Position numbers and translations under genes: made by a program
The notes under the pieces: model-generated
Databases searched by the model: none
What the model saw: only the letters and a program-made list of their open reading frames with translations
What the model was told of the DNA's origin: nothing
Part shown: one piece after another, positions 23,557 to 44,724 of the stretch
Numbering within the stretch: position 1 is the stretch's first letter
Layout: every line of letters starts with the position of its first letter
Assembly: GCA_947460345.1 (NCBI GenBank)
Contig: CANHGM010000021.1
Coordinates: 1-55,598 of the forward strand
DNA: 55,598 nt
Origin: Bacteroidota bacterium
GTDB taxonomy: Bacteria > Bacteroidota > Bacteroidia > UKL13-3
Reading direction: 5' to 3'

Positions 23557-25329
23557 ATGAAAAAAATATTTAATCTTATATATATATTGCTTAGCTGCAG
23601 TACATATACATTTTCTCAAAGCTTAGATTACAGTGTGGGTATAGGAAGCAATATGCAACTAAAACCTTACAAGAAAGTGATGGGAATTGATACAATTAAT
23701 GGTGTTGTTTCATTTTCAAATCAGTATTTTGACCATTATTCATTTGAAGGTCATTTAGGAACTCCAGGGTATAGTGAAGATGGTTATGAGCAAGTATCTT
23801 ATGATGAAATCAGTAAAAAATATTCATCCTCTCAACAATTTGGTTTAGATTTAAAAGGTGGATCAATAGGAATTGAAGATGTATTTTCAATTATCTTAAA
23901 TAGAAGTAGGACTTATTTATTTTTCAGTTATTCAAAAGACTTTATTTGTAGAAAAGATACCTTTATAAAAAATTATCCAGATGTTAGATTTAAAGATATT
24001 GGAATTGCATATTTTAATGACTTTGTAAACAACTGGGTAATTTTTACCAAAAAAAGTTTAAGTGGGACAGATGAACAAATTAAATCTATAGCAATGGATG
24101 AGCAAGAGAATATGTATATATTGGGAGAGTATGGTCGTCCTTTTTTTCAGATGGATAGTTTACAGTTGAAGGCTATTACATCTGCAGACCATCAAGATTA
24201 TAATGATTTTAAAAATTTTTTCTTAATAAGCTTAGATAAAAATGGGAACATGCGTTGGGGTAAAAAACTTTGGGTTGGAGAAGGTAGTTTAAGAAACCTC
24301 ACTTATAATAAAGACTATGGACTTATGCTATCTATATATAATGGCACCTATATTGATAGCTTTGTGTATGATACTAAGTGGTATACACACAAGAAACCAA
24401 TATACCCCACCCTCAACAACTATTTAATGTTTATAGATACAAACGGCTCTTTATATAACTATCACATAACATTAAACAAAAAAAATTCAACAACAGAGAG
24501 AAGTGTTATTCTCCATGCCCATATACCCCATACCGCAAGCAATTATGTAATATCTGCATATAAAGATGATATAAAAGTAGGAAATGACAGTGTAATATGC
24601 AAACGAAATATTTCTGGATTTTATCAAAAATGTTTTTATATGTGTAAGGTAAACAAAGACAATATACAATACGCCAAACCATTAAATTTTGACATGTGGC
24701 ATTACAAACCTGGAAGTTTAGATTATGCCATACAAATAGAAGACTTAAAAGCTGACACTGCTGGCAATTTTTATATACTGGGTACATTTGGCGATAGCCT
24801 AAGAATAGGCAAGCAAATAGTTGCCCCTTACAGCAAGCAAGATGTGTTTTTAGCTGCCTTTGATAGCAATGCTCAGTTACTTTGGTTGCAAACTGGCCAT
24901 GGCGTCAAAAACGATAGCAGTTTTGCCTCTTCTATGGTGGTATGGCGTAATCAAGTTACGATAAATGGATATGTAACAGATAGTTTTTATTGGGAAAATC
25001 AATTCAAAGACAATGAAAAATATAGGCATATGTTTATTGCTAGGTTTGAGACACACCATACCGGGGTGGATATGCTTAATACATTAGACGACATGGCTGT
25101 ACTTGAAGTGTACCCAAATCCTACTCAAGATATACTCAATATTGTAATGGAACACAACGGTAAAACTAGCATCAAACTATATGACATCAGCGGCAAAGAG
25201 GTAATGTATATACAAACTAACAAAACTTATCAAACCAATATAGATATTTCTGCTCTACCTTCAGGTATGTATTATCTTAAAGCAGAAGGCGACACTTGGC
25301 AAGCTGGGAAAAAAATAATGAAGAGATAA
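23557..25329 (+). CDS. T9SS-secreted protein with C-terminal sorting domain
   Basis: 590 residues: signal peptide MKKIFNLIYILLSCSTYTFSQ, a long beta-rich middle and a type A sorting domain in the last about 75 residues (LEVYPNPTQDILNIVMEHNG ... LPSGMYYLKAEGD, ending KKIMKR). The middle contains repeated segments of the type D-x-x-G-N-[MF]-x-[WY] (MDEQENMYILGEYG, DKNGNMRWGKKLW, DTAGNFYILGTFGD, DSNAQLLWLQTGHG), a pattern common in beta-propeller-like secreted proteins. Substrate unknown. It is transcribed alone and converges on the OmpA-family gene. Surface attachment or release through T9SS is inferred from the sorting domain. Confidence 0.85.
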   Translation: MKKIFNLIYILLSCSTYTFSQSLDYSVGIGSNMQLKPYKKVMGIDTINGVVSFSNQYFDHYSFEGHLGTPGYSEDGYEQVSYDEISKKYSSSQQFGLDLKGGSIGIEDVFSIILNRSRTYLFFSYSKDFICRKDTFIKNYPDVRFKDIGIAYFNDFVNNWVIFTKKSLSGTDEQIKSIAMDEQENMYILGEYGRPFFQMDSLQLKAITSADHQDYNDFKNFFLISLDKNGNMRWGKKLWVGEGSLRNLTYNKDYGLMLSIYNGTYIDSFVYDTKWYTHKKPIYPTLNNYLMFIDTNGSLYNYHITLNKKNSTTERSVILHAHIPHTASNYVISAYKDDIKVGNDSVICKRNISGFYQKCFYMCKVNKDNIQYAKPLNFDMWHYKPGSLDYAIQIEDLKADTAGNFYILGTFGDSLRIGKQIVAPYSKQDVFLAAFDSNAQLLWLQTGHGVKNDSSFASSMVVWRNQVTINGYVTDSFYWENQFKDNEKYRHMFIARFETHHTGVDMLNTLDDMAVLEVYPNPTQDILNIVMEHNGKTSIKLYDISGKEVMYIQTNKTYQTNIDISALPSGMYYLKAEGDTWQAGKKIMKR

Positions 25330-27052: not shown

Positions 27053-28120
27053 TTATTCTACCCAATCAACTAAAAACAAATTGGTGTCTTTAGTCCCGTT
27101 GTTGTTTCTATTTGACGAAAAAACCAATTTCTTACCATCAAAAGAAAACATAGGAAAGGCGTTGAAATTACTTTCAGTGGTTATTTGTTCTAAACCTGTT
27201 CCATCCTCATTTATCATATATAATTGAAAGTTATAACCTCTACTTTCAGGAGTAGCTTTATGGTTAGAAGAGAATATAATTTTCTTACCTGATGGATGGT
27301 AAAATGGAGCCCAATTGGCTTTCCCTAATTTTGTTATTTGTTTTAAGTCTGAACCATCTATATTGATTGTATATAATTCCATATTGGTAGGAGCTACAAG
27401 CCCCATAGACAACAATTCTTTATACTCTTTTATCTCTTGCTCTGTTTGGGGCCTACTGGCTCTAAATACCAACTTCTTGCCATCAGGCGAAAAAAATGCA
27501 CCGCCATCATATCCTAATAGATTAGTCACTTGTTTGATATTCTTACCATCTATATCCATTATATATAAATCTAAGTCGCCATTTCTAGAACTTGTAAATA
27601 CAATTTTATCACCTTTAGGACTAACGGTTGCTTCTGCATCATACCCGGGGCTGGCTGTTAAAACATTCATATTATTGCCGTTAATAGTAGAGGTATATAT
27701 ATCAAAGTTGTTATATACACCCCAAAGGTATTTGTGGGCAGCCCATGTGGGAGGAGTTGGTTGTTGTGGGCAATCTTTTGAAGCAGCATGTGTGCTTGCA
27801 AAAACAATGTTTTTATTACCAGGCATAAAATAACTACATGTAGATCTTCCTTCGCCATTGCTCACTGGAAAAATCTTGAACTCTTTGTTGTTGTCAGTAA
27901 TATCCATTGTGTAAATTTGATCACACATAATTTCTTCACTAGGATTGGTTTTCTGGAATGTGAGCATTTTATTATTAAAACTAAAATAAGCTTCAGCATT
28001 ATCACCCCCAAAAGTCAACTGCTTTATATTTTTGAAATGTTTTTCAGAAATAGGCTCATCAGCACTCTTAAATGATAGAGCTGTAATTACGATAGATAGC
28101 AATAGTAATAATTTTTTCAT
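27053..28120 (-). CDS. Exported TolB-like beta-propeller protein (PD40 repeats)
   Basis: 355 residues with a signal peptide (MKKLLLLLSIVITALSFKSA) and WD40-like PD40 repeats throughout: AEATVSPKGDKIVFTSSRNG, GAFFSPDGKKLVFRASRP, WAPFYHPSGKKIIFSSNHKA and FNAFPMFSFDGKKLVFSSNR, each followed by a D-[IL]-x-[IL]-[MN]-x-x-D blade strand. This is the fold of the TolB C-terminal domain; related exported proteins in Bacteroidota are common and mostly uncharacterised. It starts 11 bases after the HmuY-like lipoprotein gene and is the last gene of that operon, so a role in the same uptake process is possible but not shown. Confidence 0.85.
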   Translation of the reverse strand: MKKLLLLLSIVITALSFKSADEPISEKHFKNIKQLTFGGDNAEAYFSFNNKMLTFQKTNPSEEIMCDQIYTMDITDNNKEFKIFPVSNGEGRSTCSYFMPGNKNIVFASTHAASKDCPQQPTPPTWAAHKYLWGVYNNFDIYTSTINGNNMNVLTASPGYDAEATVSPKGDKIVFTSSRNGDLDLYIMDIDGKNIKQVTNLLGYDGGAFFSPDGKKLVFRASRPQTEQEIKEYKELLSMGLVAPTNMELYTINIDGSDLKQITKLGKANWAPFYHPSGKKIIFSSNHKATPESRGYNFQLYMINEDGTGLEQITTESNFNAFPMFSFDGKKLVFSSNRNNNGTKDTNLFLVDWVE

Positions 28121-28131
28121 ATTGACTGAGT

Positions 28132-29136
28132 TTATAGTCTTTGAAACTCAAATTTAGGATAACCTTTTTCGCCTTTGTTGTTGTAATAATCAATAAATCT
28201 TAACTTATAATAATAGCCTTTTTTGCTTTTAATGATATAAGTAACATGACTTCTAGTAACGTATTTACTTGAAGTTTGGCTATATGTTTTCCAATCATAT
28301 CCTATAACGTCGTCTTGTTTATAATATTTCAATGTCTTTACAAATGAAAGATTTAAATTTTCGTACCCAGTTGTAGAGTCTTTTGCACAACATACTACAT
28401 TAGGATTGAGTAAAACGCCCCTAACTATATATGACAAAGGTGGATTGTATTCATGGTAGATTTGAGCATAACTGGTAAACAGTATATCCCATTTGTTTCT
28501 TGTAGGTTCTATTTCAGGAAGGTAAGTACCCCCATTTTCGAAATTAAAATAAACAAAGTTTTTAGAATCGTTCTTCATGATTATGGCTGAGTCTAAATCA
28601 GAACCATCCAAATTGGCATACTTTATTTTATACCTTCTATCATCTACAAAATGTATTTGAAATTTTTTATATCTTTCTTTTGCAGCTCTGGTATCACCTC
28701 TATCAATTATATATATATATCCTTTGCCTTTTAGCACCATAGGGAAGGGAGGCCCACGAAAACCCCATTCGCCAATAGCTGTAGAGTCTAAGTCGCCATT
28801 GTTGGCATCAGACAAAAACAAATAATTTTTAGTATATGTTGTATCCCAATTTCTACAATTGGTATTGATAGCTTTTACCAATAAGCCTCCATTAAGTTTT
28901 ATATGCCATCCATGATCGTTAGATTCAAAAGCAAGCTCCCAAGATCTATTTTTGGATGAAAATGTTTTGTTTGAATCAATGTCGTAATACACTTGGTTTT
29001 CGTATGAAGACCCTAATTCAATTTCAGAAACTTTTGAAGGTCCAGGTGGAGGTAAAACAACTGCTTTGTCTTTTTTCTCACATGAGCTAAAAATCAATAG
29101 TAACAGTGTATATAAAATAAATATTTTTTTATACAT
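28132..29136 (-). CDS. HmuY-like surface lipoprotein
   Basis: 334 residues. Lipoprotein signal: MYKKIFILYTLLLLIFSSC with the lipidated Cys19. The mature part has HmuY-family features: NQVYYDIDSNKT, SWELAFESNDHGWHIKLNGG near the start, a second WDILF module, and the C-terminal VTYIIKSKKGYYYKLRFIDYY. HmuY proteins of Porphyromonas and relatives bind heme at the cell surface and hand it to a TonB receptor. Here the receptor gene is immediately upstream and overlaps by one base (TAATG). Shared motifs with the gene two positions upstream (KYANLDGSDL against RYANIDNSDM) show the two are paralogues. Heme as ligand is inferred from the family. Confidence 0.75.
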   Translation of the reverse strand: MYKKIFILYTLLLLIFSSCEKKDKAVVLPPPGPSKVSEIELGSSYENQVYYDIDSNKTFSSKNRSWELAFESNDHGWHIKLNGGLLVKAINTNCRNWDTTYTKNYLFLSDANNGDLDSTAIGEWGFRGPPFPMVLKGKGYIYIIDRGDTRAAKERYKKFQIHFVDDRRYKIKYANLDGSDLDSAIIMKNDSKNFVYFNFENGGTYLPEIEPTRNKWDILFTSYAQIYHEYNPPLSYIVRGVLLNPNVVCCAKDSTTGYENLNLSFVKTLKYYKQDDVIGYDWKTYSQTSSKYVTRSHVTYIIKSKKGYYYKLRFIDYYNNKGEKGYPKFEFQRL

Positions 29137-31343
29137 TATAGATAATATTTTAAGTTAATAAAACCAGTTCTTCCATAACCCATAATAGCAGAATTTCCTG
29201 AATTGTTATGAAAACCACCTGGGTTGCCAGTTGTATTCACATTCTTTATATTCAATATGTTTTTCAAGCCTAATGTTATATGTAGCTTGTTTTTGTAAAA
29301 GGCTTTAAAAACTGATGCATCCATCCAATGGTATGATCCAATGGTATATAAACTGGTGCTTTGAGCGTTGTCTGACAATATATAATTTGTTTGTTTACCA
29401 TTAAACTTATAAAACAGTGAAAAGTCAATTTTTGTGCGTTCCCATTTAATATTTAATTGACCATTAAACTCATGTATATTGTTTTTATAATCGTTTAAGT
29501 TAAATTTACTTTGAACATTCATTAATCCATATCCTCCTTTTAAAGATATATTTTTATATTTAACTTGAGCTAAAAGAGTACCGCCAATATTTCTAAATTC
29601 ATCAATATTTTTATAGGTATATTCATTGATAATTAAGTTGGTGGCAACCAATGAAATCATATTATATAAATGATTAAAGTATAACGAACCATTTATTGTA
29701 ACTGACAATTTTCTTAACTTATGTTTCTTTTCAAAATCTAAATTAAAATTATCGCTGGTTTCTTGAGTTAAGTTTTCATTTCCAATAATTCTGTGGTTTT
29801 GGTCTACAAAGTATAAGTTTAATTCTTTTAAACTTGGAGACCTATAACCTTTAGCATATGAAAACCTATATGTTGAGTTTATATTAGGTGTGAATTTTAT
29901 ATTTAATGCAGGCATAATAGGTAAGCCAAATTTGCTATTCCAAGCCGATCTAGTTCCTAATCTTAACAACCATTTGTTGTTTGGTATATATTCTATATTG
30001 CCAAATGCAGCAATATCTGTAATTGTTTGTTTTTCGTTTGTCAGTTTTTTGCCTAAAGCTATGTCGTGTGTATATTCATATCCAATTTGCCACTGTGTTT
30101 TTTTATTTTCATGAACAGCACTGTAAGTACCTCTACTCATATAAGTAGTAAACAAATTTGTGTCTTGCTCATCAACCCCAGGGGTTAAGGTTTGTTGTAA
30201 AGTTACATGGTCTTTATAATAGGTATTTTTTTCTCTTTTATATAATTGAACCGATGAAACTATATTTAATTGATGTTTGTTGTTAAACTTTTTTTCAAAA
30301 TTTAATATACTATTATATCTATAAGTTTTGTAATATTGATCTAATGAATATGCTTCATATGGTGTAATGTTTACATTTCCTTTGGCTGACAACAATTCTT
30401 GATAATAATTGAGTTGTACTCTTAAGAATGAACTTTTACCTAATTTAAAACTCAATTGGTTTTCGATAAAATATTGCGTTTTAGGTTTCCACAACTGTTG
30501 TCTAGCTTGTGGCAAAGTATCCCAACCTCCAAAGAAATTTCGTCCACCATATATGCTATATGAAATATTTTTAACTGCAAAACCTATTCTAGCGTCAACA
30601 TTATATCTACCAATGGTTTCATAATATGTATTTAATTGTCCTGTTATTTTTTTGAAAGAATTTTTTTTGGTTATAAGATTAATAACACCTGCGAGTGCAT
30701 CACTACCAAAATTAACTGCCATAGGGCCTTCTATAATTTCTATTCTTTCTATATTACTCAAATTTATTTGAGATAAATCTATATTACCGTTTTCTCTTCC
30801 TATCAATGGTACACCATCTATTAAAATTTTTATGTTCTGCCCGCCAATACCTCTGATAGAAGCTGTTGCACCAAGTATTTGGTCGTTGCTTTGTTTGAAA
30901 TTTAATTCATTAATCAAAACATCTTTTAATGAAACTGCTCCTAATTGTTGAATCTTTTTTGAATCAATAATCGTAATTTTTTGAGGTGCGTTTTCAACTT
31001 TTTTCGATTCAGTTTGTCCTGTGATAACTACGCCACCAAGTTCAGTTTTTGAATCTTTTAAAATTACTTTTACTTGTGTTTCGCTATATGATTTTTGGAT
31101 TGGTTCATACCCAATTCTATTGATTTGTAGAGTGAAAGGTAACTCAATATCTAACTTAATTTTACCAGCAAAATCAGTTATATATAATTTGTTCTTATTA
31201 TTATTAGTATGAATATATACATTAGTTTCTGTTAATGGTTCATTATTTTCATTTATAACAGAAATCACCACTGCATTTTTAGTTTGTGCAGTGGTGACTT
31301 TTGTTAAGGTCAAAAGAACAATTAAAACAAAAATTTTATTCAT
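29136..31343 (-). CDS. TonB-dependent receptor paired with HmuY-like proteins
   Basis: 735 residues: signal peptide MNKIFVLIVLLTLTKVTTAQ, CarboxypepD_reg-like domain to about residue 95, plug (IRGIGGQNIKILIDGVPLIG, NIERIEIIEGPMAVNFGSDA, LAGVINLITKK) and a long barrel ending GRTGFINLKYYL. The plug is of the HmuR/FhuE/BtuB type. The ATG overlaps the last 8 bases of the preceding T9SS gene (ATGAATAA), and its stop overlaps the following lipoprotein start, so all three are probably coupled. This order resembles hmuR with hmuY, hence probable heme or metalloporphyrin import; other iron complexes are not excluded. Confidence 0.88.
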   Translation of the reverse strand: MNKIFVLIVLLTLTKVTTAQTKNAVVISVINENNEPLTETNVYIHTNNNKNKLYITDFAGKIKLDIELPFTLQINRIGYEPIQKSYSETQVKVILKDSKTELGGVVITGQTESKKVENAPQKITIIDSKKIQQLGAVSLKDVLINELNFKQSNDQILGATASIRGIGGQNIKILIDGVPLIGRENGNIDLSQINLSNIERIEIIEGPMAVNFGSDALAGVINLITKKNSFKKITGQLNTYYETIGRYNVDARIGFAVKNISYSIYGGRNFFGGWDTLPQARQQLWKPKTQYFIENQLSFKLGKSSFLRVQLNYYQELLSAKGNVNITPYEAYSLDQYYKTYRYNSILNFEKKFNNKHQLNIVSSVQLYKREKNTYYKDHVTLQQTLTPGVDEQDTNLFTTYMSRGTYSAVHENKKTQWQIGYEYTHDIALGKKLTNEKQTITDIAAFGNIEYIPNNKWLLRLGTRSAWNSKFGLPIMPALNIKFTPNINSTYRFSYAKGYRSPSLKELNLYFVDQNHRIIGNENLTQETSDNFNLDFEKKHKLRKLSVTINGSLYFNHLYNMISLVATNLIINEYTYKNIDEFRNIGGTLLAQVKYKNISLKGGYGLMNVQSKFNLNDYKNNIHEFNGQLNIKWERTKIDFSLFYKFNGKQTNYILSDNAQSTSLYTIGSYHWMDASVFKAFYKNKLHITLGLKNILNIKNVNTTGNPGGFHNNSGNSAIMGYGRTGFINLKYYL

Positions 31344-32622
31344 TAATAATCAATTTGAAACTAACACTACCTGTATTGGTTTCAATTTTTACTATATATA
31401 AACCTGAATGTATGTTTTCAGTATTTAAACCTAAAGTGTTAATTCCGTTTTTAACAACCACTTGGTTGTTAAATACTTGTTGGCCATTCATATTATAAAC
31501 AATCATTGCTGCATTGTTATCATTAATAATTGAATTGAATATTATATTGGCATTGGTTTTAGCAGGATTAGGATATACACCTAAAGCTGTAAAATTTGAA
31601 GTAATGCTATTTAAACCTGTGTTCATAGCACCTCCATTTAATATGATATTACCATTGGCAGCACCACCAAAACCTGTGAAAACAATTTTAGCTATAACCA
31701 TACTGTCAGCAGTGTTTTTACGATTCATTCTAATAAAATAAACCAATGAATCTTCAAGAACCCAAGCATTTGTTCCATTGTCAAAAGTTTTCCAATCACT
31801 GCCTAAAGCATTTGTTTCTTTCTTAAACATCATGCTAGGGTTAAAAGGTGCATTGGTATCAACCCCTGATGCTTTTACCACTTCAACAGCTCTGTTGCTA
31901 AGTGCTCCAATTACAGGATACCAATCAAATGTACCTGGACCTGTAGGTACTAATTCAGTATATCTTGTAAACTTTAATTGCCAAGTTGAATCTACTGGTT
32001 CTTTATCTAAAACTAAATCAGATAACAATGATTGATATATAAATAATTTGTTTTTATAGTTTGCTCTATTCACGCTACCATACTTCATATCAGAATTGTC
32101 AATGTTTGCATATCTGAAAGTAAAAACTGAATCATATAGTAAAGTATCAATAGCTAATTTTTTAACTACCCCACCTGGTAAAACAATAATGTATAATGAA
32201 TCACCAACAACATGTTTGCTTGTTTGGTTATAGTCACCCCATCCAAAATCGAATGGATTAGAAAAACCAGGAGCAGTAGAAGTAAAAGCATCTCTGTTCC
32301 AATTAAAATTCATGTCATGTAATTCAGGAAAGCTTTTCCAATTGGTAGTATCAAAAGTAGCAAATGCAGTAATATCAGCATTTGGAACTCTATACAATTT
32401 TACTCCTCTTCCACTGTTAATTCTGATTGAAGCCGATCTGTTTTGGGTGCTGAAAGCCAAGTGCCAGTCAGTATTGGTTGCTTCTTGTTTTTGAGCGTTA
32501 AAGACGTTGTAGTAAACATCATTGATATAGCCTGGGCCCATCACTACTGTGTCTACTTTTAAAATCTGTGCGTTTACTAGAGTAGTAAACAAAATACTTG
32601 AAAGTATTAATATTTTTTTCAT
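31336..32622 (-). CDS. T9SS-secreted HmuY-like protein
   Basis: 428 residues: signal peptide MKKILILSSILFTTLVNAQ; a HmuY-like body with NDVYYNVFNAQKQ, DWHLAFSTQNRSASIRINSG, FTFRYANIDNSDM and WQLKFTRYTELV; and a type A T9SS sorting domain over about the last 75 residues (LGVYPNPAKTNANIIFNS ... IHSGLYIVKIETN). The body lines up with the lipoprotein two genes downstream, so the locus encodes two versions of one binding protein, one exported through T9SS and one lipid-anchored. It is the first gene of the operon, with a TAATTTCG promoter element and, further up, a Crp/Fnr-like box. Predicted role: extracellular capture of heme or a related ligand for the coupled TonB receptor. Confidence 0.75.
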   Translation of the reverse strand: MKKILILSSILFTTLVNAQILKVDTVVMGPGYINDVYYNVFNAQKQEATNTDWHLAFSTQNRSASIRINSGRGVKLYRVPNADITAFATFDTTNWKSFPELHDMNFNWNRDAFTSTAPGFSNPFDFGWGDYNQTSKHVVGDSLYIIVLPGGVVKKLAIDTLLYDSVFTFRYANIDNSDMKYGSVNRANYKNKLFIYQSLLSDLVLDKEPVDSTWQLKFTRYTELVPTGPGTFDWYPVIGALSNRAVEVVKASGVDTNAPFNPSMMFKKETNALGSDWKTFDNGTNAWVLEDSLVYFIRMNRKNTADSMVIAKIVFTGFGGAANGNIILNGGAMNTGLNSITSNFTALGVYPNPAKTNANIIFNSIINDNNAAMIVYNMNGQQVFNNQVVVKNGINTLGLNTENIHSGLYIVKIETNTGSVSFKLIINE

Positions 32623-32712: not shown

Positions 32713-32724
32713 TGATAAAAATCA
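32713..32724. promoter_or_regulatory. Crp/Fnr-type box upstream of the HmuY-like/TonB operon
   Basis: TGATAAAAATCA, the reverse complement of the two TGATTTTTATCA boxes before ccoI. Its centre lies about 70-75 bases upstream of the predicted start site, a spacing used by Class I Fnr/Crp activation. Confidence 0.45.
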
Positions 32725-32750: not shown

Positions 32751-32767
32751 TTTGATTAATGATCAAA
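32751..32767. repeat. Inverted repeat TTTGAT-N5-ATCAAA
   Basis: TTTGAT (32751-32756) and ATCAAA (32762-32767) flank a five-base centre, just beyond the pheT stop codon. It could be a hairpin at the end of pheT (no T-run follows) or a variant regulator site; its spacer is one base longer than the other Crp/Fnr boxes. Confidence 0.35.
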
Positions 32768-32778
32768 ATCAATGCAGA

Positions 32779-35320: not shown

Positions 35321-36031
35321 ATGAAATGTGACCATAAATCAGATAACTCAACATGCAGACTTTGTTCTGCAGGTTTAAACTTATTTATGAACGATTTGCC
35401 TAGCGAATTAGAACTAGAACTAAATTCTTTAAAAAAGAACATCAAGTTAAAAAAAGACCAAGTCCTTTTTCATGAAGGGAGTGTGCCGTTAGGGCTTTAT
35501 TGCATTGATTATGGTAAAATTAAATTAAATATGATTGGTTCTGATGGTAGAGAACATATCATTAGACTTTTAAAAGACGGGGAAGTTTTGGGATATAGGG
35601 CATTGCTTAGTGGCGACCACTATAAAGCTACTGCTACTGCTATAGAAGATGCTGAAGTATGTTTAATACCAAAGGTAATTGTAGATAAAATAATTTTAAA
35701 ATCAGATAGATTTTTAAAAGAATTAATTAGAAAATTATCAACTGACCTTACCAATGCCGAACAAAGTGTTACCAGTATTGCACATAAATCTTTAAGACAA
35801 AGAGTTGCTGAATCTATCATTCATTTAAAAGACATTTATGGTTTTGAAGAAGACAATCAAACTATAGCTGTAGTTTTGTCTAGAGAAGAAATTGCTAGTG
35901 TAGTTGGTACTGCCACAGAGTCTATCATCAGACAACTGTCTGACTTAAAAAAGGATGGTATGATAGAATTAGATGGTAAGCGAATAAAAATATTGAATGA
36001 AAATAAGTTAATGGTTACTGCTGATAAGTAA
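35321..36031 (+). CDS. Crp/Fnr-family regulator with N-terminal cysteine cluster
   Basis: 236 residues: a cyclic-nucleotide-binding-like beta roll at about 30-125 (DQVLFHEGSVPLGLYCIDYG, GEVLGYRALLSG), a dimer helix and a winged helix-turn-helix (SREEIASVVGTATESIIRQLSDL). Recognition-helix residues E-S-I-I-R parallel the E-x-x-S-R of Fnr. Cysteines at 3, 12 and 15 (C-x8-C-x2-C) plus Cys61 and Cys114 could hold an iron-sulfur cluster; the gap from the cluster to Cys114 is close to that in E. coli Fnr. Directly upstream of the cbb3 oxidase genes, it is the likely oxygen-responsive activator of that locus. Oxygen sensing is inference. Confidence 0.85.
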   Translation: MKCDHKSDNSTCRLCSAGLNLFMNDLPSELELELNSLKKNIKLKKDQVLFHEGSVPLGLYCIDYGKIKLNMIGSDGREHIIRLLKDGEVLGYRALLSGDHYKATATAIEDAEVCLIPKVIVDKIILKSDRFLKELIRKLSTDLTNAEQSVTSIAHKSLRQRVAESIIHLKDIYGFEEDNQTIAVVLSREEIASVVGTATESIIRQLSDLKKDGMIELDGKRIKILNENKLMVTADK

Positions 36032-36036
36032 CTTCT

Positions 36037-36070
36037 TGATTTTTATCATAAACTTTACTGATTTTTATCA
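36037..36070. promoter_or_regulatory. Tandem Crp/Fnr-type boxes upstream of ccoI
   Basis: TGATTTTTATCA occurs at 36037-36048 and identically at 36059-36070, 22 bases centre to centre, both followed by ATAA. Each is a TGAT-N4-ATCA box close to the Fnr consensus TTGAT-N4-ATCAA; the first one has the extra leading T. They lie in the 89 bases between the regulator gene and ccoI. Confidence 0.65.
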
Positions 36071-36100: not shown

Positions 36101-36122
36101 ACGACTCAATTAAGAGAGTCGT
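36101..36122 (+). promoter_or_regulatory. Hairpin covering the ccoI start codon
   Basis: ACGACTC (36101-36107) can pair with GAGTCGT (36116-36122); the right arm includes the first two bases of the GTG start and the purine-rich AAGAGAG that could serve as ribosome-binding site. The structure could limit ccoI translation. Confidence 0.4.
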
Positions 36123-38538
36123 GAAAGTTAATTATTCAAACCAAATAGACAAACAAGAAGTAACCTTCTGTTTTCATTGTGGAGATCCTTGTCCTGATTT
36201 AGATTTAATATACCAAGAAAAATATTTTTGTTGTGATGGATGTAGATTTGTATATGAAATTTTAGACAAAAATAACTTATGCAATTATTACGAATTAAAT
36301 GCACATCCTGGAAACACGCTTAAAGCCCCTAAGGCTTCAAAAAAATATGATTATTTAGCTGAGCCTGCTATTGAAGAAAAATTTATAAGTTTTAGAAACA
36401 AACACTATAGCGTTGTTACACTTTACTTACCAGGAATACACTGCAGCTCATGTCTTTGGTTGCTTCAAAACTTAAACAAATTTGATGCAGGCGTTTTAAA
36501 TAGTATCGTTTCATTTGAGAAGAAAGAAATTAAAGTTATATATAAACATCAAAAGACTAGTTTACACAAGATAGTTAAACTTATTGATTCTTTAGGATAT
36601 CCACCATCAATCACTTTTGAAGATATATATAATAAAAAGAAACCAGAAAGTTCTAAAGCTATATTATATAAAATAGGTGTAGCTGCCTTTTGTTTTGGAA
36701 ACATTATGATGCTGAGTTTTCCTGACTATCTTACATCAGAAACTATTGACCCCTTCTTAGGTAAATTTTTCAGAATACTTTCATTTGTATTGTCATTACC
36801 AGTATTGTTTTATTGTGCTTCTGAGTTTTATAAACCTGCATTTAAAAGTTTAAGACATGGTTTTATTAATATAGACTTACCTATTGTTTTCGCCTTGCTT
36901 ATGGCATTTGGGGTAAGTATTTATCATATTTTCTTTTTAAATGAAGGCGGGTATTTAGATTCAATGGCTGGCATAGTATTTTTTATGCTTGTAGGAAGGT
37001 GGTTGCAAAACAAAACTTATAACAATATATATTTTGATAAAAACTATCAATCATTTTTACCTGTATCGGTTACACAAAAAATGTATAATCAAGTAAAAAA
37101 TGTACAAGTAAAAGACATCGTTGTTGGTGATATTATTGTTGTGAAATATGGTGAAATTATACCTTTTGATGGAATAATTAAAAATGGTTTGGGTATTATA
37201 GATTATAGTTTTATAACTGGCGAAACTGCAACAGAAAATATAGAAAAAGGTGAAAAAGTATATGCAGGAGGAAAACATTTAGGAACACAGCTAGAACTTG
37301 AAGTAACAACACCCTATGATAAAACAAATATTGCAGAATTATGGCAAGCAAATAATAGTAATAAAATATATCAAACTCCTTCAAGATTATATATTCAAAA
37401 AATAAGCAGGTATTTTGCACTATTACTTATTTTTATCGCTATTGGTGCAGGGGTTTACCATTTTGGCGAAGGTTGGAATATGACTATAAAAACTTTTACT
37501 TCTGTACTAATTGTAGCTTGCCCTTGTACATTACTCTTATCCCATACTTTTACTGATGGTTTTATGTTGAACCAATTAGCCAAAAAAGGTTTATTTATAA
37601 AGAATACCATGATACTAGATGAAGTTGCAACTATTAAACATATAGTATTTGATAAAACTGGTACTTTAACAGATACTTCAAATATGCAAATTACATATCA
37701 AGGAGAGGAATTAAACACAAGAGCAAGATCGTATATATATAATTTAACAACCAACTCAGGACATCCATTAAGCAATAGTATTAATGAGTTTATAGGCAAA
37801 CAACCTTTATTGAATATAGAAAATTATAAAGAATTGATTGGACTTGGACTAGAAGGTATCATTGAACATCACAGTATAAGAATTGGAAGTGCTGAATTTA
37901 TGAATGTTTCAGCACCTGAAAAATCAAATAAAACAATTATATATATATCAATTGACAATAAGATATATGGCTACTTTGAAGTATTTCAAAGTTATAGAAA
38001 AGATTTACAACATTTATTTAACAAGTTAAAATCTAAATATGCTTTGTGGTTGATGAGTGGCGATAAAGACTATGATAGAAAGCTACTTGAACAATATATA
38101 CCCAGCAAAGAAAACATATTTTTTGAATTAAAACCACAAGAGAAACAAAACAAAATAAAATCATTAAAACTAGAAGGGAAAACGATGATGGTAGGTGACG
38201 GTTTAAATGACTTGGCGGCTTTTAATGAATCTGATATTGCTGTAGCCGTTTGGAATGATGAAACCAGTTTTACACCCGCATGTGACATCATAGTTCAAGG
38301 AAAAAACTTGAACAAAATGGACCAGTATATAAGCTACATGAAAAATGAGCGTTTGGTAGTTTATTTTTGTTTTGGTATCTCGTTATTGTACAATATTGTA
38401 GGAATTACTTTTTCAGTTTGTGGAATGCTATCACCACTAATAGCTGCCGTGTTAATGCCTATAAGTTCTTTTTCAATTATTTTGTTTGCATATGCCATTA
38501 CAAATTATTTGAACAATAAATACCTTAAAGATTTATGA
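36121..38538 (+). CDS. ccoI: Copper-translocating P-type ATPase for cbb3 oxidase assembly
   Basis: 805 residues. N-terminal cysteine domain of the FixI type: CFHCGDPC (17-24) and FCCDGC (36-41), then an HMA-like domain with GIHCSSC (Cys108, Cys111). The P1B ATPase body follows with eight predicted membrane segments, TGET (actuator), the ion-path motif CPC in IVACPCTLLL, the phosphorylation site DKTGTLTD and the hinge MVGDGLNDLAAF. It delivers copper toward the periplasmic side for the CuB centre of cytochrome cbb3. The start is a GTG at 36121, chosen because the cysteine motif follows at normal distance and no ATG is available. Tandem Crp/Fnr boxes lie upstream. Confidence 0.94.
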   Translation: MKVNYSNQIDKQEVTFCFHCGDPCPDLDLIYQEKYFCCDGCRFVYEILDKNNLCNYYELNAHPGNTLKAPKASKKYDYLAEPAIEEKFISFRNKHYSVVTLYLPGIHCSSCLWLLQNLNKFDAGVLNSIVSFEKKEIKVIYKHQKTSLHKIVKLIDSLGYPPSITFEDIYNKKKPESSKAILYKIGVAAFCFGNIMMLSFPDYLTSETIDPFLGKFFRILSFVLSLPVLFYCASEFYKPAFKSLRHGFINIDLPIVFALLMAFGVSIYHIFFLNEGGYLDSMAGIVFFMLVGRWLQNKTYNNIYFDKNYQSFLPVSVTQKMYNQVKNVQVKDIVVGDIIVVKYGEIIPFDGIIKNGLGIIDYSFITGETATENIEKGEKVYAGGKHLGTQLELEVTTPYDKTNIAELWQANNSNKIYQTPSRLYIQKISRYFALLLIFIAIGAGVYHFGEGWNMTIKTFTSVLIVACPCTLLLSHTFTDGFMLNQLAKKGLFIKNTMILDEVATIKHIVFDKTGTLTDTSNMQITYQGEELNTRARSYIYNLTTNSGHPLSNSINEFIGKQPLLNIENYKELIGLGLEGIIEHHSIRIGSAEFMNVSAPEKSNKTIIYISIDNKIYGYFEVFQSYRKDLQHLFNKLKSKYALWLMSGDKDYDRKLLEQYIPSKENIFFELKPQEKQNKIKSLKLEGKTMMVGDGLNDLAAFNESDIAVAVWNDETSFTPACDIIVQGKNLNKMDQYISYMKNERLVVYFCFGISLLYNIVGITFSVCGMLSPLIAAVLMPISSFSIILFAYAITNYLNNKYLKDL

Positions 38539-38550
38539 CAAAAATCATAA
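38533..38550. promoter_or_regulatory. Crp/Fnr-type box before ccoS-ccoNO
   Basis: TTATGA and TCATAA form perfect arms around a six-base centre; the core TGACAAAAATCA differs by one base from the TGATAAAAATCA form. The ccoI stop codon lies inside it. It suggests a second start of transcription for ccoS-ccoNO. Confidence 0.55.
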
Positions 38551-38611
38551 ATATTACTGACCATTCTCATGTTTTAAGCATCTTAACAACCTTTTTTTTG
38601 TAACTTCAATT

Positions 38612-38770
38612 ATGAACATAATAATATTGATTATATGCTGTAGCATCTTGTTAGCCGGTGGTTTTTTAATTGCCTTTTTGGTCAGTGTAAAAAAAGGAGC
38701 CATGGATGATGAGTATGCCGAATCAGTTAAAATTTTATTCGAAAACGATAACAAACAAAATAATTTATAA
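38612..38770 (+). CDS. ccoS: cbb3-type oxidase assembly protein CcoS
   Basis: 52 residues: MNIIILIICCSILLAGGFLI is a single membrane helix, then AFLVSVKKGAMDDEYAESVK, where the D-D-[ED]-x(3)-[SP] segment after the helix is the CcoS hallmark, and a short charged tail. Family members are 50-70 residues, so the gene is complete. CcoS is needed to insert cofactors (heme b and CuB) into CcoN in other bacteria. It sits 73 bases after ccoI and three bases before ccoNO, the expected place. Confidence 0.9.
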   Translation: MNIIILIICCSILLAGGFLIAFLVSVKKGAMDDEYAESVKILFENDNKQNNL

Positions 38771-38773
38771 AGT

Positions 38774-40909
38774 ATGAATATAGAAACTTTTCATTACGAC
38801 AACAAAACCGTCAAATTCTTTGCTTATGCCACCATTGTATGGGGAGTAGCAGGAATGGTTGCTGGTTTATTAGCCGCTCTTCAAATGTACTTGCCGGTTA
38901 TGAATTTCAACTTACCTTTTACTACATTCGGAAGGATAAGACCATTACATACTAATGCTGTAATATTTGCATTTGTAGGAAATGGTATTTTTACAGGTGT
39001 TTATTATTCATTACAAAGACTATGTAAAGCAAGAATGTATAGCGATACCCTGAGTAAAATACATTTTTGGGGATGGCAATTAATTATAGTTTTAGCTGCA
39101 GTGACACTTTTGGCTGGTTTTACTACAGGTAAAGAATATGCAGAGTTAGAATGGCCAATTGATATTTTAATAACTCTTATATGGGTAATCTTTGGTATCA
39201 ATATGTTTGGAACTATTATCAAAAGAAGAGAAAAACATTTATATGTTGCCATATGGTTTTATATAGGTACATGGGTTACTGTGGCTATGTTGCATATAGT
39301 TAATTCAATTGAATTACCTGTTTCATTATTTAAAAGCTATTCATGGTATGCTGGGGTTCAAGACGCTTTAGTTCAATGGTGGTATGGTCACAATGCAGTG
39401 GCATTCTTTTTAACAACCCCATACTTGGGTTTGATGTATTACTTTTTACCTAAAGTGGCTAATAGACCAGTATATTCATACCGACTATCAATTATACATT
39501 TTTGGGCGTTAATATTTATATATATATGGGCTGGACCTCATCACTTAATATATACAGCACTTCCTGATTGGGCTCAATCATTAGGTACAGTTTTCTCAAT
39601 AATGCTTATAGCTCCATCTTGGGGTGGTATGTTAAATGGATTATTTACTTTAAGAGGTGCTTGGGATAAAGTGCGTGAAGAACCAGTTCTTAAATTTATG
39701 GTGGTGGCTATTACTTGTTATGGTATGGCAACTTTCGAAGGACCCTTATTATCAATTAAATCAGTAAATGCAATTTCTCACTATACTGATTGGACCGTTG
39801 GACATGTTCATATTGGTGCATTAGGCTGGAATGGATTTTTAACTTTTAGTGTATTGTATTGGTTAATTCCAAGATTATTTAACACAAAGCTATTTTCTAA
39901 AAAACTAGCTGAAACACATTTTTGGATTGGTACCATAGGTATATTGTTATATGCGGTACCATTATATTGGGCTGGATTTGCACAAAGTTCAATGTGGAAA
40001 CAATTTACTGAAGAAGGTCAATTAAAATATCAATTCTTAGAAACTGTTACACATATCATACCTATGTATGCCATGAGAAGTATAGGTGGAGCATTGTATC
40101 TAGTTGGCTTTATTATCATGATATATAATATAGTTAAAACTGTTAAACAAGGTTCGTATATAGGTGATGAAGCTGCACAAGCTGCTCCATTAGCCTTAAC
40201 AACTGATGACCATGATTCAAAAGGATACTGGCATAGAAAAGTTGAACGTAGACCATTCCAAATGTTAATCGTGAGTTTACTATTAGTATCAATCGGTGGA
40301 TTGGTAGAGTTAATTCCAACATTTGTCATTCAATCAAACGTTCCAACTATTGCTTCAGTAAAACCATATACACCTCTTGAATTACATGGAAGAGATATAT
40401 ATATAAGAGAAGGCTGTTATACATGTCATTCGCAAATGGTAAGACCTTTTAGAGATGAAGTAGCTAGATATGGAGAATATTCGAAAGCTGGTGAGTTTGT
40501 ATATGACCATCCATTCCAATGGGGTTCAAAAAGAACCGGACCAGACTTGGCTAGAGAAGGTACTTTGAAGAAAAGACAAGCAGACTCTTGGCACTATAAC
40601 CATATGTTAGAGCCTCAACAAATGTCACCAGGTTCTATTATGCCATCTTATCCTTGGTTGTTCGATAATCAATTAGACTTAAGTAAAACACCTTTAGTAG
40701 TAAATGCCATGATTAAATTAGGTGTGCCATACGAAAAAGATTATGCATCCAAAGCAAATGACGATTTGTTAGCACAAGGAAAACTAATCCAAGCAAGCTT
40801 GAAAAAAGACAATATAGATGTGAGTGAAAAAGACGAAATAGTAGCCATCATAGCTTACTTACAAAGATTAGGTACAGACATCGAAATTAAACCAACCACT
40901 ACTAAATAA
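38774..40909 (+). CDS. ccoNO: Fused cbb3 cytochrome oxidase subunits I and II
   Basis: 711 residues joining CcoN and CcoO, as is common in Bacteroidota. Residues 1 to about 480 are CcoN: twelve-helix heme-copper oxidase core with LHTNAVIFAFVGNG, the active-site region QWWYGHNAVAFFLTTPYLG, AGPHHLIYTALPDW and TVGHVHIGALGWNG, all containing heme or CuB histidines. A linker and one helix (MLIVSLLLVSIGGLVELIPT) precede CcoO, whose single heme-c site is CYTCHSQMVRPF (Cys548, Cys551, His552), followed by the typical QWGSKRTGPDLAREG and MPSYPWL with the axial Met. Terminal oxidase for low oxygen, proton-pumping, in the inner membrane. Confidence 0.97.
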   Translation: MNIETFHYDNKTVKFFAYATIVWGVAGMVAGLLAALQMYLPVMNFNLPFTTFGRIRPLHTNAVIFAFVGNGIFTGVYYSLQRLCKARMYSDTLSKIHFWGWQLIIVLAAVTLLAGFTTGKEYAELEWPIDILITLIWVIFGINMFGTIIKRREKHLYVAIWFYIGTWVTVAMLHIVNSIELPVSLFKSYSWYAGVQDALVQWWYGHNAVAFFLTTPYLGLMYYFLPKVANRPVYSYRLSIIHFWALIFIYIWAGPHHLIYTALPDWAQSLGTVFSIMLIAPSWGGMLNGLFTLRGAWDKVREEPVLKFMVVAITCYGMATFEGPLLSIKSVNAISHYTDWTVGHVHIGALGWNGFLTFSVLYWLIPRLFNTKLFSKKLAETHFWIGTIGILLYAVPLYWAGFAQSSMWKQFTEEGQLKYQFLETVTHIIPMYAMRSIGGALYLVGFIIMIYNIVKTVKQGSYIGDEAAQAAPLALTTDDHDSKGYWHRKVERRPFQMLIVSLLLVSIGGLVELIPTFVIQSNVPTIASVKPYTPLELHGRDIYIREGCYTCHSQMVRPFRDEVARYGEYSKAGEFVYDHPFQWGSKRTGPDLAREGTLKKRQADSWHYNHMLEPQQMSPGSIMPSYPWLFDNQLDLSKTPLVVNAMIKLGVPYEKDYASKANDDLLAQGKLIQASLKKDNIDVSEKDEIVAIIAYLQRLGTDIEIKPTTTK

Positions 40910-40916
40910 TAAAGAC

Positions 40917-41099
40917 ATGAAATTTATCAATTATTTATCAAACACAGAAAACATACAGTGGATTGGAACAAGTGCCTTTATGTTGTTTTTTGTTTTCTTC
41001 TTAGTGATTATGATCAGAGCATTTATTGCTAAAAAATCAGAAATTAAAGAGTTAGAAGAGCTTCCTTTCAACGATCAAACAATTAATCAAAATAGTTAA
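40917..41099 (+). CDS. ccoQ: cbb3 oxidase subunit CcoQ
   Basis: 60 residues with one membrane helix (WIGTSAFMLFFVFFLVIMIRA) and a charged cytoplasmic tail, the size and shape of CcoQ/FixQ, which stabilises the oxidase. Located between ccoNO and ccoP, seven and four bases from its neighbours. Confidence 0.88.
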   Translation: MKFINYLSNTENIQWIGTSAFMLFFVFFLVIMIRAFIAKKSEIKELEELPFNDQTINQNS

Positions 41100-41103
41100 G
41101 TTT

Positions 41104-42189
41104 ATGAAAAATAATTTAAGTTATATATTAATAAGTGGCTTGCTTTTGATGGCAAGTCCATCGTTCTCAGCTACAGCAGCTTCATCAGACAGCACCAATG
41201 ACTTTAATATTCTTATATATCTTTTAGTGGTATTGATGGTATTACTAGCATTGGTTATTGGTGGTTTGTCAATAGCTATTACCAAAGGAGTAAAAGCTGA
41301 TATAAAAATATATAGAGCTAAAAATGCTAATGTAGCCAAAATGTTATTACCACTATTATTAGTAGGTACCAGTATTGCTGCTCAAGCTCAAGATGCTACA
41401 GCTGCAGCTACTCCTATTGAAAATTGGTATACTTCTACAAATGTGCTATTATTTATTATAGGATTTATAGCTTTTGAAGTTATAGTTATTTTTACATTAC
41501 TATATACATTATATAAATTAGTCATCAGTAATAAATATTCACTATTAGCCGAATATCAACCAGAGAATACACCTCAAGAAATGTCATGGTTTGAGAAGTT
41601 TAACGATTTTGTTGAGCCAGAAAAAGAACATACTATTGATATGGGTCATGAATACGATGGCATTCGTGAATTGGACAACAAATTACCCGGTTGGTGGTTA
41701 TATGGTTTTTATGGAACAATAGTATTTGCTTTTATATATATGTGGTATTACCATGTAAACAATGGACCATCTAGTAAAGATGAGCTTGCAGCAGCTATGC
41801 TTCAAGGTGAAAAAGACAAAGCTACTTATTTAGCTAAATCGGCAAGCAGTATAGATGAGAGCAGTGTAAAACTATTTAAAGGTGCTGCAGCCATAAGTTC
41901 AGGAAAAGAAATATTTACTAAAAACTGTGTGGCTTGTCATGGCAATATTGGACAGGGTGCACAAGTTGGTCCTAACTTAGTTGATGATTATTGGATACAT
42001 GGTGGTAAAATAAATGATGTTTTCAAAACCATTAAATATGGATATCCTGAAAAAGGTATGCGGTCATGGAAAGATGATTTATCACCAATGCAAATGGCTC
42101 AAGTAGCTAGCTATGTCAAATCATTAAGAGGAAGCAATCCTGCTGGTGCAAAAGAAAAACAAGGCGAATTATATACTGAACAAGATTAA
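41104..42189 (+). CDS. ccoP: cbb3 oxidase subunit III, single-heme CcoP
   Basis: 361 residues. It starts with a signal-like helix (MKNNLSYILISGLLLMASPSFS), then a second helix (ILIYLLVVLMVLLALVIGG), and at about 79-96 another segment that itself looks like a signal peptide (KMLLPLLLVGTSIAAQAQ) before the CcoP core: two helices (LLFIIGFIAFEVIVIFTLLY and WWLYGFYGTIVFAFIYMWYY) and one cytochrome c domain with CVACHG (Cys275, Cys278, His279). Proteobacterial CcoP has two hemes; the single heme form is usual in this phylum. The PFNDLPGWW-like motif here is LDNKLPGWWL. It feeds electrons to CcoO/CcoN. Confidence 0.93.
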   Translation: MKNNLSYILISGLLLMASPSFSATAASSDSTNDFNILIYLLVVLMVLLALVIGGLSIAITKGVKADIKIYRAKNANVAKMLLPLLLVGTSIAAQAQDATAAATPIENWYTSTNVLLFIIGFIAFEVIVIFTLLYTLYKLVISNKYSLLAEYQPENTPQEMSWFEKFNDFVEPEKEHTIDMGHEYDGIRELDNKLPGWWLYGFYGTIVFAFIYMWYYHVNNGPSSKDELAAAMLQGEKDKATYLAKSASSIDESSVKLFKGAAAISSGKEIFTKNCVACHGNIGQGAQVGPNLVDDYWIHGGKINDVFKTIKYGYPEKGMRSWKDDLSPMQMAQVASYVKSLRGSNPAGAKEKQGELYTEQD

Positions 42190-42212
42190 TTAATAAGGCA
42201 ACAAAAAATATA

Positions 42213-43598
42213 ATGGAGGGTAATGATAAGGGATCTTTTAGAGATCATTTAGCTACAGTAGACCAACATGGTAAAAGAAATTGGATTTATGCCAATAAAC
42301 CATCTGGTAGACTTTATAAGTGGAGAAGCATCGTAAGTTATATATACTTCATTATATTTTTTGGGTTGCCTTTTATATACTGGAATGGCCATCCGATATT
42401 TATGATCAATATACCCAAAGGCAAGTATATTGTTTTTGGTAAGATTTTTTGGTCACAAGATTTTTTTATCTTTGGCTTATCAATGATTATTTTTATCATA
42501 CTCATTGCTTTATTCACCGCGGCTTTTGGTAGGTTGTTTTGTGGATGGGTTTGCCCGCAAACCAATTTTATGGAAATGATGTTTAGAAAAGTAGAATATT
42601 GGATAGAAGGAACAGCAAGTGAACAAAAAAAACTAAATGAATCTCCTTGGAATAGTAAAAAGATTGCTACAAAAACTATTAAACATGGATTGTTTTTTAT
42701 ATTAGCATTTATTATAGCCAATATCTTTTTATCATATATAATCGGGATAGAAGATTTATGGCATATAATTACTGACCCAGTTCAGTCGCATATACGTGGT
42801 CTTGTTTCTATCTCCTTTTTTAGTTTGGTCTTTTACGGAGTATATGCATTCTTTAGAGAACAGGCCTGCACAGTTGTTTGCCCATATGGTAGACTTCAAA
42901 GCATGATGATAGACAAAAATTCTATGATAGTTGCCTATGATTATAAAAGAGGTGAACCTAGAGGTAAAAACGACGAAACTCACGGCGATTGTATAGACTG
43001 TAATCTCTGTGTAAAAGTATGTCCTACTGGAATAGATATTAGAAATGGTCTACAAATGGAATGTGTAGGATGCACAGCTTGTATAGATGCTTGTGATAAT
43101 GTAATGGAAAAAATTCATAAGCCTAACAAACTTATTCGCTATGCTTCTGAAAATACTATAGCCAATGGAACGCCTTTTATTCTTAACAAGAGAATGAAGT
43201 TTTATTCTTTACTTATCTTGATTTTGGCTTCTATTCTAACATTTGTTATTGCAACTCAAGAAGAGGTTGAAATTACTGTGATGAGAACGCCAAGTTTATT
43301 GTTTCAAGAAGTAGGCAAAGACAGTATCTCTAATTTATACAATATTAAATTATTGAATAAAACATATAATCAATTAAATTTGACAGTAAATGTATCAGAC
43401 AATATTGGTAATACTAAAATAATGGGAGCAGAAACAATTAAGGTTAATAAAGAAGATCAAGGTGCTGCAACCGTTTTTGTGACATTGCCAAGGTCATATA
43501 TCAAAAAAAGAAAAAGTAAAATTCATTTAAGCTTTTATAATGGACATGAATTGGTTCATGAAATTACAACAAATTTTATAGGTCCGGGTAAACATTAA
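42213..43598 (+). CDS. ccoG: cbb3 oxidase accessory protein CcoG
   Basis: 461-residue membrane iron-sulfur protein; in other bacteria CcoG (RdxA/FixG) reduces copper during cbb3 assembly. Features in order: membrane helices, FGRLFCGWVCPQTNFMEMMF, helices, CTVVCPYGRLQSMM, then two [4Fe-4S] ferredoxin motifs (CIDCNLCVKVCP and CVGCTACIDACD), a last helix at about 335-352 and a C-terminal Ig-like domain (IKLLNKTYNQLNLTVNVSD ... FVTLPR), which is PF11614-like. It is 23 bases downstream of ccoP. Confidence 0.95.
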   Translation: MEGNDKGSFRDHLATVDQHGKRNWIYANKPSGRLYKWRSIVSYIYFIIFFGLPFIYWNGHPIFMINIPKGKYIVFGKIFWSQDFFIFGLSMIIFIILIALFTAAFGRLFCGWVCPQTNFMEMMFRKVEYWIEGTASEQKKLNESPWNSKKIATKTIKHGLFFILAFIIANIFLSYIIGIEDLWHIITDPVQSHIRGLVSISFFSLVFYGVYAFFREQACTVVCPYGRLQSMMIDKNSMIVAYDYKRGEPRGKNDETHGDCIDCNLCVKVCPTGIDIRNGLQMECVGCTACIDACDNVMEKIHKPNKLIRYASENTIANGTPFILNKRMKFYSLLILILASILTFVIATQEEVEITVMRTPSLLFQEVGKDSISNLYNIKLLNKTYNQLNLTVNVSDNIGNTKIMGAETIKVNKEDQGAATVFVTLPRSYIKKRKSKIHLSFYNGHELVHEITTNFIGPGKH

Positions 43599-43609
43599 TT
43601 AATACAACT

Positions 43610-44032
43610 ATGAATTGGGGATATAAATTATTAGTACTATATGTTTCATTTGCATTGATGATGCTTTATATGGTTTTTAGAGCTAACAATACCAAGTTTG
43701 ATTTGGTATCTGATAAATACTATCAAGACGAGCTAAACTACCAACAATTAATTGACGCGTCAAAAAACAACAATGGTGATATGACTTCTGTTTTCAAAAA
43801 TGAAAACGACATTCTAAGCATCACTGTACCACAATCGTTACGTAACAAATTTGACTCATCTGTGGTGTTATTGTATTGCCCTCAAAATGCTACATTTGAC
43901 AAACAATATGTATATACAAACCCAACAGAATTTATATATACATTAGAAAAACAAAAATTGCCATTAAGCAACTACCAATATAAACTTTTTGTTTATAGCA
44001 AAGGTAAAATATTGTTTTACCAAGAACAGTAA
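43610..44032 (+). CDS. ccoH: FixH/CcoH family protein
   Basis: 140 residues: an N-terminal helix (KLLVLYVSFALMMLYMVFRA), the conserved VSDKYYQDELNYQQLIDA, and a beta-rich extracytoplasmic part. This is the FixH/CcoH family, an assembly factor or loosely bound subunit of the cbb3 oxidase. It is 11 bases after ccoG and its stop overlaps the next start (TAATG). Confidence 0.9.
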   Translation: MNWGYKLLVLYVSFALMMLYMVFRANNTKFDLVSDKYYQDELNYQQLIDASKNNNGDMTSVFKNENDILSITVPQSLRNKFDSSVVLLYCPQNATFDKQYVYTNPTEFIYTLEKQKLPLSNYQYKLFVYSKGKILFYQEQ

Positions 44033-44724
44033 TGTATGCCGTTCAGATCTCTACAGGATTGTTTATGGGACTTGCAGCTAGTTTGCATTGCATGGGTATG
44101 TGTGGTCCCTTAAATATACTAATCAATGGCAATCAAAACATAAACAGTCAATATATAATTTTTACCAGTATATATCACATAGGTAGAATTTTAATGTATA
44201 TACTAATTGGGTTATTATTTGGTTTTTTTTCTTCATTTCTGAACCTACAATATATACAAAACTTTGCCTCTTTTTTAGCCGCTTTTGTGATACTTATTTA
44301 CTTAACTACTAGTATGAGTAAAAAAATGGAGCATTGGGTATCACAAACTTTTATATATAGCAAAGTACAACAACTTTTAAGCACTTTTATCACACAAAAT
44401 ACATATAAAGGCAAACTGTTTAGTGGAATGTTAAATGGATTATTGCCATGCGGATTGGTATATTTAGCGGCTACTACAGCGGCATTATCTTCAACTGTAA
44501 TCCAAGGCGTTACCTTTATGTTTTCTTTTGGATTAGGAACTTTACCTGCATTGGTTATTTTACCTATGTTTGTTGGTAGCTTACAGCTCAAAAAATATAG
44601 TTATTTTAAGTATGTGTCATCGGCTCTATTAATCATAGTATGTATCATTTTTGTCATAAGAGGACTAAATCTTTCTGGTATAGTCATGCAGTGGTTTGGC
44701 AGTGAGAAAGCCGTTTGCCACTAA
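44032..44724 (+). CDS. TauE/SafE-like membrane protein of the cbb3 locus
   Basis: 230 residues with about six membrane helices and the signature GLAASLHCMGMCGPLNILI, plus GLLPCGLVYLA in the second half; both cysteine motifs are conserved in this branch of TauE/SafE proteins (also annotated as UreH-like or cytochrome biogenesis proteins) that ends cbb3 operons in Bacteroidota. The paired H-C-x-G-M-C-G-P and L-P-C-G motifs suggest copper handling or thiol chemistry in the membrane; direct evidence is lacking. Last gene of the operon. Confidence 0.85.
   Translation: MYAVQISTGLFMGLAASLHCMGMCGPLNILINGNQNINSQYIIFTSIYHIGRILMYILIGLLFGFFSSFLNLQYIQNFASFLAAFVILIYLTTSMSKKMEHWVSQTFIYSKVQQLLSTFITQNTYKGKLFSGMLNGLLPCGLVYLAATTAALSSTVIQGVTFMFSFGLGTLPALVILPMFVGSLQLKKYSYFKYVSSALLIIVCIIFVIRGLNLSGIVMQWFGSEKAVCH

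Follow-up and report, generated by a model that had tools for sequence, protein, structure and literature searches.

What is the role of a locus in which two HmuY-like proteins, one with a T9SS tail and one with a lipid anchor, flank a single TonB-dependent receptor? Such a locus lies on the minus strand of the window, by which we mean the whole stretch of 55,598 nucleotides analysed here from a Bacteroidota bacterium. We consider it likely to be a HmuY/HmuR-type heme acquisition operon, in which two HmuY-fold proteins would serve one TonB-dependent receptor. The basis of this reading is the gene content, the predicted folds, the paralogy of the two binding proteins, the conserved gene order and the presence of heme-pathway genes in the operons of relatives.

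Operon layout and conservation of the gene order

The operon and its sequence features are as follows.

31336..32622, minus strand: gene 1, T9SS-exported HmuY-like protein of 428 aa (T9H); open reading frame, Por_Secre_tail, predicted HmuY fold
32569..32622, minus strand: T9H signal peptide, residues 1-18, ending in LVNA and followed by Q; read from the sequence
31345..31578, minus strand: T9SS type A C-terminal sorting domain of T9H, residues 349-426; profile match
29136..31343, minus strand: gene 2, TonB-dependent outer-membrane receptor of 735 aa; Plug PF07715, 1.3e-22
28132..29136, minus strand: gene 3, HmuY lipoprotein of 334 aa (LPH); PF14064, 5.7e-21, predicted HmuY fold
29080..29091, minus strand: LPH lipobox F-S-S-C (IFSS followed by C, Cys19); read from the sequence
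27053..28120, minus strand: PD40/TolB-like beta-propeller, optional last gene; PD40, 2.4e-34

An earlier note on this DNA had described a three-gene operon with overlapping reading frames, and all its coordinates are correct, as are the overlaps of 8 bases between T9H and the receptor gene (31336-31343) and of 1 base between the receptor gene and LPH (29136). It had also assigned the two binding proteins to different export routes, which is borne out by the Por_Secre_tail in gene 1 (Pfam 1.3e-12; TIGR04183 2e-15) and by the lipobox and PF14064 in gene 3. With a signal peptide and a C-terminal type A domain, T9H of the window has both features of a T9SS type A cargo. The Q after the signal peptide is invariant in 39 aligned sequences, the type A sorting domain is present in all full-length T9H of the deduplicated loci (109/109), and SprA is encoded in the window's genome. 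LPH carries the signal peptide with lipobox cysteine that is characteristic of bacterial lipoproteins. This cysteine is kept in 98% of the aligned relatives, and a lipobox-like motif was detected in 96 of 106 LPH. The curated score of PF14064 is reached by LPH (75.7 bits, cut-off 27), and 65 of 69 members of its family match the same model. T9H of the window did not match PF14064 in a Pfam profile search; of the aligned members of its family, 32 of 65 do, the best with 2.3e-14.

The receptor reaches the cut-off neither of the B12-receptor model TIGR01779 (97.3 bits, cut-off 599.7) nor of the hemin-receptor model TIGR01785 (92.4 bits, cut-off 316.85). These are, in this order, its nearest NCBIfam models, and no curated model assigns a substrate to it. 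For the PD40 gene, which had been proposed as a further part of the system, the spacing was given correctly, as it starts 11 bases past the end of LPH. However, it is only an occasional partner and was found 3′ of LPH in 22-23 of 141 loci, counted without deduplication. In the window an intrinsic-terminator-like site follows this gene (27030-27004). A further T9SS type A cargo of 590 aa is encoded downstream of the operon on the opposite strand (23557-25329, plus strand); the tail is its sole recognised domain.

The order of T9SS-HmuY, receptor and lipoprotein recurs across Bacteroidia and is strongly conserved; its absence from relatives was what the earlier note had named as a refutation. 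Almost every member of the window's family has a relative of T9H, mostly of 30-40% identity, as do 13 of the 53 genomes that were sampled from other parts of the class. Where loci were chosen by T9H, receptor and LPH adjoin in 57 of 60. The exceptions are one locus at a contig end (L039) and two lone fused double T9H (L073, L074) without receptor or lipoprotein within the 18 kb fetched, which count against the proposed system. A test independent of T9H was based on 80 loci fetched with a receptor alignment; this search was productive, whereas a search of genome contigs with the single T9H sequence gave no match. T9H was found in 73 and LPH in 78 of these 80 loci. Of the seven loci in which T9H is missing, one (L156) is a genuine exception; in the other six the contig breaks off within about 1.5 kb. 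The alternative order of receptor, LPH and T9H was observed in 4 of 141 loci. The T9H-chosen and receptor-chosen sets partly overlap, and deduplication reduces the 141 loci to 119.

Paralogy and predicted folds of the two binding proteins

T9H and LPH are homologous over 280-320 residues, that is almost end to end, with 25% identity (BLASTP 2e-21 without and 5e-18 with composition correction). In this alignment RYANIDNSDM pairs with KYANLDGSDL, and the two proteins are paralogues as had been claimed. A tree of 80 sequences separates them into two clades (support 1.0 and 0.76), so that one duplication is older than their spread.

AlphaFold2 models were built from alignments of 65 T9H and 69 LPH sequences and reached a mean pLDDT of 93.9 for T9H and 94.7 for LPH. 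Eight HmuY-like entries match the LPH model with Z 11.8-14.9. The top one is PinO (Z 14.9), heme-bound P. gingivalis HmuY (3h8t) is matched over 134 residues at 2.7 A (Z 14.5), and six more entries give Z 11.8-14.2. After this group follow a DUF4466 protein (Z 8.5) and the first unrelated row (Z 5.4). For the T9H model, Foldseek listed no HmuY in the 50 best rows, many of which were Ig-like or fibronectin-like folds, and the tail of the model matches other T9SS tails. Realignment by VIA ranked six HmuY-like entries of the group matched by LPH first, with Z 11.1-13.9. The HmuY-like folds proposed for both proteins are thereby supported on the level of predicted structure.

Both proteins are bigger than classic HmuY, with about 300 instead of 190 residues. 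Two tandem HmuY modules per protein were considered and rejected, as the structure alignments extend over both halves and show a single HmuY core plus additional residues. A half-versus-half profile comparison was suggestive (E=5e-6 for T9H, from one comparison; 1e-4 for LPH). Since the alignments treat both halves as one core, we limit the claim to the statement that, according to the models, T9H and LPH are enlarged HmuY-fold proteins. In UKL13-3 and relatives (L073, L074, L075/L105), T9H is doubled into a single T9SS protein of 756-766 aa with two HmuY units.

Probable ligand and probable heme supply

The ligand of the operon is very probably heme, because in some relatives the genes of a heme ABC transporter and HemS are located inside the operon. 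In five relatives (L081, L119, L149, L163, L166) the stretch from T9H to the receptor contains genes for a periplasmic binding protein, a FecCD permease and HemS; four or five of these relatives also encode an ABC ATPase there. One of the five is the isolate Taibaiella soli (L119), whose ATPase exceeds the curated heme-ABC threshold (304.5 vs 261 bits) and whose HemS domain is detected with 1e-79. This is guilt by association, though strong and specific. The inserts in operons of other relatives are genes for a CbiX-like lipoprotein, PepSY_TM, DUF6686 or DUF6607. A CbiX-like chelatase lipoprotein, often together with PepSY_TM, lies between T9H and the receptor in L035, L039, L040, L062, L101, L102, L111 and L121, and a function as surface or periplasmic heme de-chelatase is possible.

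The sequence alignments of the two families revealed no invariant His or Met in T9H or LPH. One T9H column holds His in 81% of the relatives; the window has Lys there, with a His adjacent. The known HmuY ligand residues are therefore unrecognisable in these alignments, and heme binding stays a prediction. The absence of a conserved His/Met pair would also fit another metal chelate such as cobalamin, as would the receptor scores of 97 bits for the B12 and 92 bits for the hemin model, both below cut-off. Against such a ligand stand the predicted HmuY folds of T9H and LPH, the genes for HemS and a heme ABC ATPase within operons of relatives, the absence of a FecCD/BtuC-type permease from the genome, and the lack of any Rfam match in the window, according to which it contains no cobalamin riboswitch. 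On the same grounds (riboswitch, FecCD, HemS in relatives) vitamin B12 was rejected as a candidate, and we regard any ligand other than heme as highly improbable.

Among abundant aquatic bacteria, heme auxotrophs have been reported. In the window's genome, which is 99.3% complete, no gene for ferrochelatase, ALAD or UroD was found, although the window itself encodes a cbb3 oxidase. Ferrochelatase and ALAD are likewise absent in 62 of 63 family relatives. One of these genomes (G021) consists of a single contig of 3,236,529 bases, the size of the closed genome of Bacteroidetes bacterium UKL13-3 (CP012155.1, 3,236,529 bases; PMC5248499), and the absence of both genes there is thus no assembly gap. 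Because these genes are missing in the window's genome and in nearly all of its family, the locus is probably their heme supply. The only family relative with ALAD and ferrochelatase (G033, genes 3-4 kb apart on one contig) counts against this, as it has the same bare operon. Outside the family, T9H was found in 8 of 14 genomes without ferrochelatase versus 5 of 39 other genomes (p=0.002, with counts read by hand and phylogeny uncorrected); the six ferrochelatase-less genomes without T9H also count against it.

No genes for HemS, HmuS/CobN-type proteins (PF02514) or FecCD were found in the window's genome, which suggests that imported heme is used whole as a cofactor. At this point we note that the genome encodes no FecCD-type permease whatsoever. 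That heme is imported chiefly for its iron, as in the classic Hmu and Hfp systems, is improbable here. Such a use would agree with the HemS, ABC or CbiX-like genes in operons of ferrochelatase-positive relatives, and with Fur/Irr-like TTAGAN5TCTAA boxes, which are commoner in operons with inserted genes. However, a genome that lacks HemS, CobN/HmuS-type and FecCD genes and has lost heme synthesis requires cofactor use at least in part. Outside the family, genes are inserted into the operon in all five ferrochelatase-positive genomes with T9H versus one of eight ferrochelatase-less ones (p=0.005). This suggests that heme auxotrophs have bare operons, whereas those of heme makers include heme-processing genes. 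We found no account in the literature of heme acquisition by environmental Bacteroidota of this kind, for which the operon represents a concrete, conserved and testable heme route.

Proposed hand-over, known systems and possible regulation

In the mechanism that we favour, T9H would bind heme, or strip hemoproteins of it, at or beyond the outer surface; LPH would receive the heme and present it to the receptor, which would import it with TonB energy. Here, we infer heme binding and surface location as well as the hand-over and its direction. A relay from secreted T9H to anchored LPH is plausible, and the evidence fits a relay and two independent feeders alike. The latter are the main rival: T9H and LPH would feed the receptor without any relay, for example T9H with heme from hemoproteins or from afar and LPH with free heme at the membrane. 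Conserved co-occurrence agrees with parallel feeding as well as with a relay, and several HmuYs coexist in B. fragilis and P. intermedia (PMC12106395). However, T9H, receptor and LPH are retained together in a ratio of nearly 1:1 over about 100 distinct loci, which suggests mutual dependence, without proving it, and we consider parallel feeding rather unlikely. Many T9SS type A cargoes are adhesins or enzymes. A surface adhesin that keeps the HmuY fold but takes no part in heme uptake would match this, and also the lack of conserved ligand residues in T9H. Yet T9H is nearly always the first gene of the receptor operon, its whole fold is conserved and it is co-retained with LPH, so that we give such a role very little credit.

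HmuY/HmuR heme uptake is well known, and so is a T9SS-secreted HmuY as such. With the HmuYR(STUV) systems of Porphyromonas gingivalis and Bacteroides the operon shares a HmuY-fold lipoprotein beside a TonB-dependent receptor, and heme supply for heme auxotrophs. It differs in its first gene, a second, T9SS-exported HmuY, in the size of the proteins (about 300 aa compared with about 190) and in a receptor that curated heme models leave unassigned. Unlike classic hmuYRSTUV, it has no HmuSTUV, and CobN-type hmuS (PF02514) is absent from the genome. The statement of the earlier note that known HmuY systems have a single lipoprotein is partly right and too strong, since some members of Porphyromonas, Prevotella and Bacteroides have two or three HmuYs (PMC12106395) and HmuY of Flavobacterium columnare (C6N29_01035) is secreted by the T9SS (PMC9618737). 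The latter protein combines a HmuY domain with Por_Secre_tail like T9H, to which we liken it by description. It is reported as a single gene, with no lipoprotein partner or receptor operon described, and strains without it grew normally in the media that were tried (PMC9618737).

HfpR-HfpY of Flavobacterium psychrophilum also joins a receptor and a HmuY-family heme-binding protein in one operon. HfpY binds heme despite its low conservation to other HmuYs. Very low conservation of this kind is also seen in the proteins of the window, but the Hfp system has one HmuY, is iron-responsive and comes without a described T9SS partner (PMC9331221). In the hmu operon of Porphyromonas endodontalis a T9SS-CTD gene (POREN0001_0445) is located upstream of hmuY; its product is described as beta-barrel-like, of unknown role and not as HmuY, and elsewhere the gene is an orphan (PMC11208336). 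HBP35 of P. gingivalis is a T9SS-exported heme-binding protein as well, reported with thioredoxin activity and not as HmuY (cited in PMC10202324). In the open-access literature we found no description of an obligate pair of T9SS-HmuY and lipoprotein around one receptor. With its lipoprotein partner, T9H would connect the T9SS with the capture of a nutrient.

Upstream of the operon and in the neighbouring cbb3 oxidase region, the following elements were detected.

32713..32724: Crp/Fnr-like palindrome TGATTTTTATCA, upstream of the operon; motif search
32760..32771: second Crp/Fnr-like palindrome TGATTTTGATCA, upstream of the operon; motif search
35321..36031, plus strand: Crp/Fnr-family regulator with several Cys near the N-terminus, candidate regulator; cNMP_binding, HTH_Crp_2
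36037..36070: two copies of TGATTTTTATCA before the gene of the cbb3-associated P-type ATPase; motif search
36121..44724, plus strand: cbb3 oxidase cluster with FixI-like ATPase, CcoN/O, CcoP, CcoG, FixH and DsbD_2
41005-41016: further Crp/Fnr-like box before CcoP; motif search

The identical 12-mer TGATTTTTATCA thus precedes T9H once and the cbb3-associated ATPase gene twice, beside a gene of the Crp/Fnr family. The cbb3 cluster is a heme consumer and possibly co-regulated with the operon. The looser motif TGAYN4RTCA occurs upstream of 36 of 110 T9H genes versus 48 of the 989 other genes of these loci, an enrichment inflated by the kinship of the sequences. With no more than one mismatch allowed, the strict box TTGATN4ATCAA shows no clear enrichment upstream of T9H (6 vs 2.7 expected) and is unremarkable genome-wide (23 vs 17 in a reversed control). 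In the window alone, nine sites of the looser kind versus 4 expected give a weak signal, reached by 4 of 100 shuffles. Since only the looser motif is clearly enriched, joint control of the operon and the cbb3 oxidase by an FNR-like regulator, as the shared boxes would indicate, stays a lead. We therefore put forward the widest reading only tentatively: it is possible that an obligate relay from T9SS-HmuY over lipid-anchored HmuY to the receptor is the main or only heme entry of a family-level lineage of free-living heme auxotrophs, and that an FNR-like regulator activates it along with the heme-needing cbb3 oxidase.

Operons with inserted genes show an enrichment of two further palindromes, ATACC-N8-GGTAT and the Fur/Irr-like TTAGA-N5-TCTAA. 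In 18 of 110 loci the former precedes T9H by about 60-200 bases, sometimes in two copies and mostly in operons of this type.
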